Origin: Streptomyces sp. HUAS CB01
GTDB taxonomy: Bacteria; Actinomycetota; Actinomycetes; Streptomycetales; Streptomycetaceae
Direction of reading: 5' to 3'
NCBI RefSeq assembly: GCF_030406905.1
Contig: NZ_CP129137.1
Location: forward strand, 4,484,001 to 4,548,000
Length of the DNA: 64,000 nt
The notes beneath the pieces were generated by a model. That model searched no databases and was not told the DNA's origin. It was given only the letters and a program-made list of their open reading frames with translations. This document shows positions 53,159 to 57,778 of the stretch, in pieces. Made by a program: the position numbers and the translations under genes. Within the stretch, counting starts at the first letter, position 1. The number at the start of each line of letters is the position of its first letter.

Positions 53159-53202
53159 CCCGAACGTTCGGGACACGCATGGGCAGCGCGGGGTGTACAC
53201 CC
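53159..53202. promoter_or_regulatory. Two perfect palindromes upstream of the Lrp/AsnC gene
   Basis: CCCGAACGTTCGGG (53159-53172) and GGGTGTACACCC (53191-53202) are perfect palindromes 18 bp apart in the 176-bp gap before the Lrp-type gene. Candidate operators; neither has a loop suitable for a terminator. Confidence 0.5.
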
Positions 53203-53264
53203 TGCATGCCTTGGATTTCACACGTAAAATTGCGGTAGCGATGAATAATGGAAGGCTCAGGCAT

Positions 53265-53720
53265 ATGGACGCCGTGGATAGGCAGCTCATCCAGGCCCTG
53301 CGCGAGAACGGCAGGGCCTCGTACGCCGAGCTCGGCCGGCTCGTGGGACTCTCCGGTCCCTCCGTCACCGACCGCATCAACCGCCTGGAGGCCGCCGGAG
53401 TCATCACCGGCTACCGGGCGACCGTCGACGCCGCCTCCCTCGGGCTCGGTGTCACCGCGCTGATCGGCATCTCCCTCTCCGACGCCGCCGACCACGAGGA
53501 CGTGGCACACCGGCTGCGCGACCTCGCGGAGATCGAGGACTGCTGGTTCATCGCGGGCGACGACTCGTACATGCTCAAGGTGCGCGCCAGCGACGTCGAC
53601 GGACTGGAGAAGACGATCCGCCGGCTGTCGGGGACGAAGGGCGTCTCGCGGACCCGTACCACCATCGTGCTGTCCACGAAGTGGGAGAACCGGGTCGGGG
53701 ACCTGCCCGAGGAGGTCTAG
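53265..53720 (+). CDS. Lrp/AsnC family transcriptional regulator
   Basis: 151 residues from ATG 53265, with GGAAGG about 9 nt upstream; ATG 53241 is an alternative. The N-terminal HTH is MDAVDRQLIQALRENGRASYAELGRLVGLSGPSVTDRINRLEAAGVITGY. The RAM/AsnC ligand-binding domain follows (LGVTALIGISLSDAADHEDVAHRL, CWFIAGDDSYMLKVRASDVDGLEKTI). It sits between ubiX and mqnE; a role in that cluster is plausible but unproved. Confidence 0.93.
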   Translation: MDAVDRQLIQALRENGRASYAELGRLVGLSGPSVTDRINRLEAAGVITGYRATVDAASLGLGVTALIGISLSDAADHEDVAHRLRDLAEIEDCWFIAGDDSYMLKVRASDVDGLEKTIRRLSGTKGVSRTRTTIVLSTKWENRVGDLPEEV

Positions 53721-56169: not shown

Positions 56170-56199
56170 CTCAAAGTCCGACTTTGAGGGTCTCAAAGT
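56170..56199. promoter_or_regulatory. Alternating CTCAAAGT inverted repeats at the leader-peptide promoter
   Basis: CTCAAAGTCCGACTTTGAG (56170-56188) is a perfect 8-3-8 inverted repeat. It is followed after GGT by a third half-site CTCAAAGT (56192-56199), so that the second and third half-sites also pair (7-3-7). The block overlaps the likely -35 element. Confidence 0.7.
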
Positions 56200-56213
56200 T
56201 CAAGTGTTAACGT
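56184..56213 (+). promoter_or_regulatory. Likely promoter of the leader peptide/symporter transcript
   Basis: TTGAGG (56184-56189) and TTAACG (56207-56212) are 17 bp apart. Transcription would begin about at the A of the leader ATG (56220), giving a leaderless mRNA. Confidence 0.55.
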
Positions 56214-56219
56214 GTGGCC

Positions 56220-56351
56220 ATGACGACAGCAGTGTGCCCCGAAACGGTCATGAGCCCCCCGCTCGTGACGCGCCTGCACGTCGACGCACCTTGCTGCGCT
56301 CGCGCCGGGACCTCCCCCGGCATGTCCGCAATCTGTCGCCGTTCGGTCTGA
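56220..56351 (+). CDS. Putative cysteine-containing leader peptide (attenuator)
   Basis: 43 codons from an ATG at the expected transcription start, ending in TGA. The peptide holds TRLHVD, then Cys-Cys (25-26), and ends MSAICRRSV. The pattern RLHVD followed by a spaced SAxC is what I know as the streptomycete 'putative leader peptide' family, usually found before sulfur and cysteine metabolism genes. It lies 89 bp before the symporter start in another frame. Adjacent Cys codons are suited to sensing charged tRNA(Cys) by ribosome stalling. Too short and too odd to be enzyme; four Cys in 43 residues. Confidence 0.7.
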   Translation: MTTAVCPETVMSPPLVTRLHVDAPCCARAGTSPGMSAICRRSV

Positions 56352-56440
56352 CCCGGCGTCACAGAGCGGCCTCCCCCGAGCGAACGGGCGCCGCATCCCC
56401 GTCCCCCCGCCTTTCCGATACGCCTCACCGGAGTGTGTCC

Positions 56441-57778
56441 GTGTCCGCGAACTCCGCGACGCCCGCCCACACCAGCCGCATACCGAAGGTCCCGTTCTGG
56501 GCCCAGATAGTCGCCGGTCTGGTCGCCGGCGTCCTGCTCGGCTGGCTGGCCCGCAGTCAGGACGTCACCTGGCTCCGCACGACCCTGGAGCAGGTCGGCG
56601 ACATCTTCGTCCAGCTGCTGAAGCTGGCCGTCGCGCCGCTCGTGTTCTTCGCGATCCTGGTGTCGATCACCAATCTGCGGAAGGTCAACAACGCCGCACG
56701 GCTGGCCGGCCGCACGCTGCTGTGGTTCATGATCACCTCGCTGATCGCCGTGGCGATCGGCCTGGCGATCGGTCTGCTCACCGACCCCGGGGCGGGCACC
56801 GGCCTCACCCGGCAGGACGGCGAGAAGCCGGAGAAGGCAGGCTCCTGGATCGACTTCCTCACCGGGATCGTTCCCACGGACGTCGTCACGCCCTTCACCG
56901 AGCTGAACGTCCTCCAGATCGTCTTCATGGCCGCCGTCGCCGGTGTCGCCGCGCTCCAGCTCGGCGACCGCGCCCAGCCGGTCCTCGCCTTCAGCGAGTC
57001 CGTGCTGGAGCTGCTGCAGAAGGCCCTGTGGTGGGTCATCCGGCTGGCCCCGATCGGCACCGTCGGCCTCATCGGCCACGCGATCGCCGACTACGGCTGG
57101 GACCTCATCGGCAAGTACGCCACCTTCACGGCCGACGTCTACGTCGGCTGCGCGCTGGTCCTGTTCGGCGTGTACCCGCTGCTGCTGGCGACCGTCGCCA
57201 GGGTCAACCCGCTGCAGTTCTTCAAGGGTGCCTGGCCGGCCATCCAGCTCGCCTTCGTCTCCCGCTCCTCGGTCGGCACGATGCCGGTCACCCAGAAGGT
57301 CACCGAGCGTCTCGGCGTTCCGAAGGAGTACACCTCCTTCGCCGTGCCGTTCGGCGCGACGACGAAGATGGACGGCTGCGCCGCCGTCTACCCGGCGCTG
57401 GCAGCGATCTTCATCGCGCAGATCTTCGAGGTCCAGCTCGGCGTTCAGGACTACCTGCTGATCGCCTTCGTCTCGGTCGTCGGATCCGCCGCCACGGCGG
57501 GTCTCACCGGCGCGACGGTCATGCTGACGCTGACCCTCTCCACGCTGGGCCTCCCGCTGGAGGGCGTGGGACTGCTGATGGCGATCGACCCGATCCTGGA
57601 CATGATGCGGACCGCGACGAACGTCGCCGGCCAGACCGTCGTGCCGGTGATCGTCGCCGCTCGCGAGAAGATCCTCGACCGCGACGCGTACGACGCGGCG
57701 AAGCCGTCGCCGATCGACGACGTGGACGCGGACGCCCGCGAGACCGAGCGGAAGGTGGCGGTGCCGGCCACCGCGTGA
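56441..57778 (+). CDS. Dicarboxylate/amino acid:cation symporter (DAACS family)
   Basis: 445 residues from GTG 56441, with GGAG seven bases upstream. About eight membrane helices plus two re-entrant loops, as in glutamate transporter homologues: GDIFVQLLKLAVAPLVFFAILVSI, the serine-rich HP1 loop AFVSRSSVGTMPVTQKV, TTKMDGCAAVYP (the NMDGT-like motif of helix 7), and the HP2/helix 8 region ATAGLTGATVML ... DMMRTATNVAGQTV. NMDGT reads KMDGC here, and the substrate Asp/Arg position in helix 8 is RTATN. The substrate could be a dicarboxylate or cystine; the Cys-rich leader upstream favours cystine (inference). Confidence 0.9.
   Translation: MSANSATPAHTSRIPKVPFWAQIVAGLVAGVLLGWLARSQDVTWLRTTLEQVGDIFVQLLKLAVAPLVFFAILVSITNLRKVNNAARLAGRTLLWFMITSLIAVAIGLAIGLLTDPGAGTGLTRQDGEKPEKAGSWIDFLTGIVPTDVVTPFTELNVLQIVFMAAVAGVAALQLGDRAQPVLAFSESVLELLQKALWWVIRLAPIGTVGLIGHAIADYGWDLIGKYATFTADVYVGCALVLFGVYPLLLATVARVNPLQFFKGAWPAIQLAFVSRSSVGTMPVTQKVTERLGVPKEYTSFAVPFGATTKMDGCAAVYPALAAIFIAQIFEVQLGVQDYLLIAFVSVVGSAATAGLTGATVMLTLTLSTLGLPLEGVGLLMAIDPILDMMRTATNVAGQTVVPVIVAAREKILDRDAYDAAKPSPIDDVDADARETERKVAVPATA

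Follow-up and report, generated by a model that had tools for sequence, protein, structure and literature searches.

A Cys-codon leader and an operator shared with cds1 precede a probable cystine importer gene in Streptomyces

The symporter gene and its surroundings

The window analyzed here is a 64,000-nucleotide stretch of the 8.1 Mb genome of Streptomyces sp. HUAS CB01. It contains a symporter gene preceded by a short leader ORF and a palindromic promoter region, with the following features.

56170-56177, + strand: outer (left) half-site CTCAAAGT, of which relatives keep CAAAG
56182-56198, no strand: operator core CTTTGAG-GGT-CTCAAAG, a conserved 17-bp palindrome over the -35 and spacer, common to cds1 promoters
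56184-56189, + strand: possible -35 hexamer TTGAGG, read from the sequence, 18 nt before the -10
56208-56213, + strand: -10 hexamer TAACGT (TAnnnT consensus), with transcription predicted to begin at or beside the ATG at 56220
56220-56351, + strand: leader ORF of 43 codons from the ATG at 56220, with homologous frames in 80 of 80 relatives (best 80 of 572)
56286-56321, + strand: 12 codons between RLHVD and MSA (4 in canonical leaders) with a Cys-Cys pair inside, delimited by comparison with L003, L006, L007, L160, and the canonical L161
56366-56394, + strand: post-leader hairpin GCGGC...GCCGC, which folds in the window and has a homologous hairpin in 57 relatives
56417-56439, + strand: hairpin GATACGC...GTGTGTC with the Shine-Dalgarno sequence GGAG (56430-56433), from the window fold
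56441-57778, + strand: DAACS symporter ORF (SDF, PF00375), 445 aa, with a GTG start at 56441 and the signature KMDGCAAVYPA

A preliminary description of this DNA had reported a 43-codon peptide with a Cys-Cys pair and an RLHVD motif, 89 bp before a DAACS symporter and behind an alternating operator and a promoter. Every coordinate in it was correct, including those of the peptide and both ends of the gap, which measures 89 nt from the leader stop to the GTG at 56441. Conservation was assessed in the best 80 of 572 encoded relatives, and those with named records were all Streptomyces. Because only the best 80 were kept, this sample is biased toward close relatives. The gene surroundings are conserved in the best 80 of 572 loci, as tblastn found a DUF4229 gene in 79, a GNAT gene in 78, an mqnE-like gene in 76, a TetR gene in 56, and an Lrp gene in 47; the outer neighbors were often missed in these counts because the flanks were at most 3 kb.

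The symporter scored 357.1 bits against PF00375 (SDF; cut-off 27.9), which places it in the DAACS family, as had been proposed. In BLASTP comparisons to E. coli carriers, it scored 151 bits with TcyP, 162 with GltP, 151 with DctA, and 67 with SstT; because TcyP, GltP, and DctA score alike, the substrate cannot be read from overall similarity. The NCBIfam models for DctA (220.1 bits against a cut-off of 513 and 182.2 against 570), GltP (168.8 against 638), and SstT (114.6 against 308) all stayed below their cut-offs. The genome's only other SDF protein scored 453 bits to DctA (cut-off 513).

The symporter has an inserted residue, DG-C-A, that only TcyP shares among the four E. coli DAACS carriers, and in the alignment with TcyP (one TcyP was compared) the insertion is followed by x-x-YPA. 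E. coli TcyP (YdjN), a cystine/sulfocysteine:cation symporter, is likewise a DAACS protein, with 31% identity and the ..GCA-x-YPA insertion, but its neighboring motif, compared by sequence, reads GQNGC rather than KMDGC. GATTKMDGCAA[I/V]YP[A/S] was present in 79 of the 80 orthologues (best 80 of 572). This TcyP-like signature bears out the suggested tie to the family that includes cystine carriers, and the protein is a probable cystine (or cystine/sulfocysteine) importer. Alternatively, it could carry another amino acid or a dicarboxylate (Asp/Glu-like), with the signs of cysteine being indirect through sulfur amino acid balance. In favor of this, the top-scoring PDB entry is an aspartate transporter (262 bits), and the GltP score is slightly higher than that of TcyP; the motif DMMRTATNV is similar to that of aspartate carriers, though just as similar to that of TcyP. 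We consider such a substrate unlikely, given that the inserted Cys of KMDGCA-x-YPA occurs in TcyP and is absent from GltP, DctA, SstT, and the aligned aspartate carriers of the PDB, and that a cysteine leader and a cds1-type operator lie at the locus. The Arg of DMMRT, which we take to be the substrate carboxylate site in GltPh, is kept in the window symporter and likewise in TcyP and GltP.

The leader ORF and the RNA that follows it

The window leader has its RLHVD motif at 56271-56285 and Cys codons 6, 25, 26, and 39 at 56235, 56292, 56295, and 56334. When other streptomycete DAACS loci were checked for the same leader, as had been proposed, an RLHV[D/G] frame was found before the orthologous symporter in 80 of 80 Streptomyces relatives (best 80 of 572). 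It had the canonical form (RLHVDLCRCMSAVC type) in 77 of these best 80, defined by the pattern R-[LR]-H-V-[DG]-L-C-[RL]-[CR]-[MVTA]-S-A-[VAT]-C; the non-canonical leaders, L003, L006, and L007, are among the window's nearest relatives. Within the same best 80 of 572, a first Cys after RLHV[D/G]L was present in 78 and a second in 66, while a Cys after SAx was present in 78 and Cys-Cys at that place in 62. The leader was also found in 18 of 20 further, more distant loci picked from weaker matches, including G025, G027, and G030 of other families, and was not found in the other two, G018 and G051. Judging from this conservation, the leader before this symporter is not there by chance.

The codons for Ser (TCC), Ala (GCG), and the last Cys (TGT) were identical in 77 of 77 canonical leaders (best 80 of 572), an unusual codon choice; of the 151 Cys codons counted across the 80 symporter genes, 3 are TGT. 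The fixation of UGU as the last conserved Cys codon, against its rarity in the symporter genes, is graded as suggestive because the leader sequences are related. The strong conservation of RLHVDLCRCMSAVC could also be that of a functional small protein and not of a sensor. This is very improbable, as the length of the C-terminus differs between leaders, the search of G018 and G051 found no leader, L006 is frame-shifted, and the identical Ser, Ala, and last Cys codons are as expected for a cis element.

Two canonical leaders of this locus matched NF042934 (cis_reg_atten) over residues 15-31 of 35 with 25.8 and 24.4 bits, under the 27-bit cut-off, and NF042936 (Ms4527A, Cys-rich leader) weakly with 14.2 and 15.4 bits; the L003 leader scored 13.8 bits with NF042934. 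The locus differs from these families in its downstream gene, a DAACS symporter. The window leader matched no NCBIfam leader model (0 families at E<=1) and was absent from the 22 NF042934 matches listed in its own genome, for which 150 of 289 candidates were scored. These comparisons place it as a divergent representative of a known leader type. The earlier expectation that RLHVD-type leaders precede sulfur genes agreed with the own genome, where nine leaders exceeded the NF042934 cut-off (150 of 289 candidates scored). Four lie next to clear sulfur genes (ThiS plus PALP, cysteine dioxygenase, NIR_SIR, and rhodanese), four next to generic but compatible ones (NMT1_2, NMT1, luciferase-like monooxygenase, and GST C-domain), and the ninth next to a short ORF without a family. 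Four of the nine are within 26 kb (8.02-8.05 Mb), close to an end of the 8.07 Mb contig, and the next genes of these leaders (L111, L113, L114, and L117) are NMT1-type, luciferase-like, and, in one case, without a family.

Cysteine-responsive attenuators with leaderless short ORFs have been described in mycobacteria (Canestrari et al. 2020, doi 10.1111/mmi.14498, as cited in PMC9031893 and PMC13236596). They resemble this locus in that a short ORF of leaderless type containing Cys codons comes immediately ahead of a gene linked to cysteine; in contrast, the Cys codons here are mostly spaced, the frame contains RLHVD, an extra DNA operator is present, and the evidence comes from sequence. Conserved Cys codons in a short ORF were found in the relatives, and the window's four are partly at other places. 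Table 4 of PMC8079986, within the part available, holds eight S. lividans leaders, and the symporter leader is not among them. In the literature covered, which included the available parts of PMC8079986, PMC9094748, PMC13236596, and PMC9031893 and few subscription journals, neither this operator nor the pairing of leader and symporter was described, and RLHVD had no match in the literature searched.

The window leader carries extra sequence after RLHVD, as do those of four close relatives, L003, L006, L007, and L160; the L006 leader is frame-shifted and stayed unclosed within the 80 codons read. The extra sequence arose within the window's subclade, judging from G280 (L160), which shares this kind of addition, and G228 (L161), whose leader is canonical. 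Members of the subclade have conserved Cys codons shifted or missing, and in the window, Cys 25, 26, and 39 come after RLHVD. The peptide with its Cys-Cys pair had been read as cysteine-sensing, and this was not supported as stated, the pair being lineage-specific and the subclade leaders looking degenerate. Cysteine sensing by the window copy is, on these alignments, less certain than the preliminary description implied.

For the post-leader RNA, 57 of the 67 relatives within length limits were aligned; near-identical loci (L011, L012, L015, L019, and L024) and those with a different post-leader region (L044, L045, L048, L056, and L080) were left out. The post-leader hairpin is supported by three measures in this alignment. 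Across the 57 relatives, 92.7% of cells were paired, which was reached by 0 of 500 shuffles, and both-side changes occurred at 3 of 7 pairs (5 cells; 1 of 500 shuffles). Two other measures were not above shuffles (355/500 and 185/500). The Shine-Dalgarno hairpin has four consensus pairs (columns 253-256 with 270-273 of alignment A2).

In 52 of 79 loci, leader codons, mostly Cys-Arg-Cys-Met, offer the region of the post-leader hairpin's 5' arm an alternative pairing of at least 11 nt, in the style of a classical attenuator. The long form of this pairing is absent in the window. Shuffles reached the duplex length in 4-47 of 200 cases for seven examples (L003, 200 of 200), in 67-200 of 200 for seven more distant loci, and in 25-199 of 200 for the genome's nine other leaders, so the duplex is not above chance in the distant loci and the nine other leaders. 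Covariation in the relatives did not support the duplex, which is treated as a hypothesis. RNA state modelling showed no consistent change in Shine-Dalgarno accessibility upon stalling: the opening energy, free minus stalled, was above 0.5 kcal/mol in 42 of 79 loci and below -0.5 in 12 of 79, and stop minus stalled gave 31 versus 19 of 79 loci. In the window's rows of this modelling, the Cys codons are C6 and C39 only, and row C24 is Pro. For a three-state Shine-Dalgarno switch, the opening-energy difference was small and mixed, with no clear difference in accessibility. Because state modelling shows no clear switch, attenuation of the symporter by the Cys-codon leader is put forward by analogy with the mycobacterial Cys leaders. 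A scan of the region for U-tract terminators found none, and the one sub-threshold Rfam match, MIR1846 (23.4 bits against a cut-off of 77.5), was taken as chance.

In this strain, the leader could be vestigial, with the 43-codon ORF a decaying relic of the canonical form and the operator alone controlling the symporter. Several observations fit: the added sequence that follows RLHVD in the window leader and those of its four relatives, with the frame shift in L006; the shift or loss of conserved Cys codons while the promoter block stays; the missing long pairing in the window; and the leader-minus locus G018. The window ORF is nevertheless open, with a conserved start and four Cys codons including the Cys-Cys pair, and the post-leader hairpin is retained. 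We regard a vestigial leader as possible, although on the doubtful side.

An operator shared with cds1

The half-sites described as alternating over the -35 region are present at 56170-56177, 56181-56188 (ACTTTGAG), and 56192-56199 (CTCAAAGT, + strand). A half-site alone is ordinary, with 12 window matches at up to one mismatch against 12.13 expected. The palindrome, by contrast, is unusual, with one exact site in its own 8.1 Mb genome, which is that of the window; allowing two mismatches gave 5 more sites, against 5 for a reversed control. A check of other streptomycete DAACS loci, also proposed earlier, found CTTTGAG-N3-CTCAAAG before the symporter with 0 mismatches in 62, 1 in 15, and 2 in 3 of the best 80 of 572 relatives (at most one in 77). 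The half-site block stood in part: its core at 56182-56198 is conserved, but the outer half-site is kept as CAAAG and not as the full CTCAAAGT. In 73 of 80 relatives (best 80 of 572), CAAAG precedes CTTTG by exactly 5 nt.

The proposed spacing of the promoter to the ATG at 56220 agreed with a predicted -10, TAACGT, 6 nt before it. This hexamer fits the streptomycete consensus TAnnnT, as given in the available part of PMC8079986. An E. coli-type promoter scan of the region found no promoter. Among the best 80 of 572 relatives, an in-frame start codon (71 ATG, 9 GTG) came 21-22 nt after the operator in all 80, GTGTT came 5 nt after it in 79, and a GTGTTAACGT-type block was present at the -10 in 78. 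In G018, an exact operator and the sequence through the -10 are present (L094 1501-1800) with no leader, and the ATG located 22 nt behind the operator begins the symporter frame itself. Where the start codon lies, in G018 as well, supports a leaderless start.

Among 17 more distant Streptomyces loci, the lowest mismatch count of any site was at most 1 in 3, 2 in 5, 3 in 4, 4 in 2, and at least 5 in 3 (G053, G059, and G137, all with the leader). The outgroup loci G025, G027, and G030 (0.85-0.9 kb each) have the leader, and their best operator site has 5-6 mismatches. No operator-like site (up to 2 mismatches) was found near any of the genome's nine other leaders. The two control layers are therefore separable, as G018 has the operator without the leader and the outgroup loci have the leader without the operator, and the 'dual control' suggested earlier is matched by two separable elements. 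By this distribution, the leader is the more widespread of the two.

Over 41 genomes, sites with up to one mismatch numbered 24 against 18 for the reversed control, so their number proves nothing alone; their position carries the argument. The 20 non-window sites with a locus lay before the symporter in 9 cases, before a PALP enzyme in 7, and before neither in 4. G007 and G013 have an exact site before the PALP enzyme and no symporter at the threshold used. The G007 enzyme matches the L-cysteine desulfhydrase Cds1 (NF052478, 604.8 bits, cut-off 600), of which M. tuberculosis has a published counterpart (PMC8389258). A search of 343 Streptomyces genomes with BCTTTGAGNNNCTCAAAGV, its ends chosen to omit most symporter sites, gave 73 exact sites in 67 genomes, and the reversed pattern occurred in 1 genome. 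All 73 sites were classed, with 49 before cds1, 23 before the symporter, and 1 before neither, indicating that the exact site marks two genes, although the 49:23 ratio is no frequency because of the end letters. The single site outside both genes (L213 in G105) is in a coding stretch that we take to be recA, possibly with an intein.

At cds1, a TAnnnT hexamer (mostly TATGAT) follows the operator by 37-39 nt at 49 of 49 sites, and in most loci some 95-101 nt separate the operator from the beginning of the cds1 match, with a different sequence after the palindrome. The same 17-bp operator is thus further upstream of the inferred promoter than at the symporter, where it spans -38 to -22 relative to the predicted start. 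Near -60, the cds1 operator would be in an activator position, and that of the symporter in a repressor position. The palindrome overlaps a plausible -35, and conservation extends over the entire block to the -10, as it would if it were a promoter shape and not a protein-binding operator. The recurrence of the palindrome before cds1, with other sequence behind it and at its own distance from TAnnnT, makes this hard to credit. The cds1 promoters (L092, L097, and L196-L268) also carry a conserved TTTATGCAGGTGAG-type block.

The cds1 orthologue of the window's genome (89%) has a degenerate site with 5 mismatches. The preliminary description missed that cds1 has this operator too in many Streptomyces, which ties the operator to cysteine independently of the leader. 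From the sites compared here, the shared operator is a stronger result than the leader and is the new part. Cysteine uptake and breakdown may share one putative regulator.

Putative control of cystine uptake

Free cysteine is toxic, and to our knowledge, cysteine handling in Streptomyces is poorly described. Our best reading, which we hold as moderately probable, is that a cystine importer is under a cysteine-related transcription factor plus a Cys-codon attenuator. In the first layer, a putative dimeric transcription factor would bind CTTTGAG-N3-CTCAAAG over the -35 and spacer of a promoter starting at the leader ATG. This factor would most likely read cysteine or a cysteine-derived signal because the same site lies upstream of cds1 in many Streptomyces. 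Its positions suggest repression of uptake and activation of cds1 where the site is kept. In the second layer, low Cys-tRNA would slow the ribosome on the leaderless Cys-codon ORF, the post-leader RNA fold would change, and the refolded RNA would raise symporter expression. In the window strain, the first layer is, by its sequence, intact at the symporter and degenerate at cds1, and the second, altered by the extra sequence, may be weak or lost. The earlier interpretation as a whole is partly supported: the leader type, the TcyP-like signature, and the dual elements found support, and cysteine sensing by the peptide with the Cys-Cys pair, as stated, did not.

The regulator could be dedicated to cysteine homeostasis with essentially two targets, shutting the importer and turning on the desulfhydrase at high cysteine, with the Cys-codon attenuator acting at low cysteine. 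Lineages would then have dropped either layer, G018 the leader and the outgroup loci the operator. We hold both parts tentatively, at a little under an even chance.

Control by both layers would bring a probable cystine importer under the known Cys-leader attenuation and, via the shared operator, link this importer to cysteine breakdown. With the 17-bp site as bait, two genes as targets, and natural variants lacking either the leader or the operator, the regulator should be directly findable. None was found here, and neither DeoR nor Lrp/AsnC is claimed as the palindrome's regulator because, by eye, neither gene has the site in front. In all four regions examined (L187, L188, L269, and L270), one of them from the window's genome, a DeoR-family gene is found near cds1. 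In the window, an Lrp/AsnC-type gene is located at 53193-53720, just before the mqnE-like gene and four genes upstream of the symporter.
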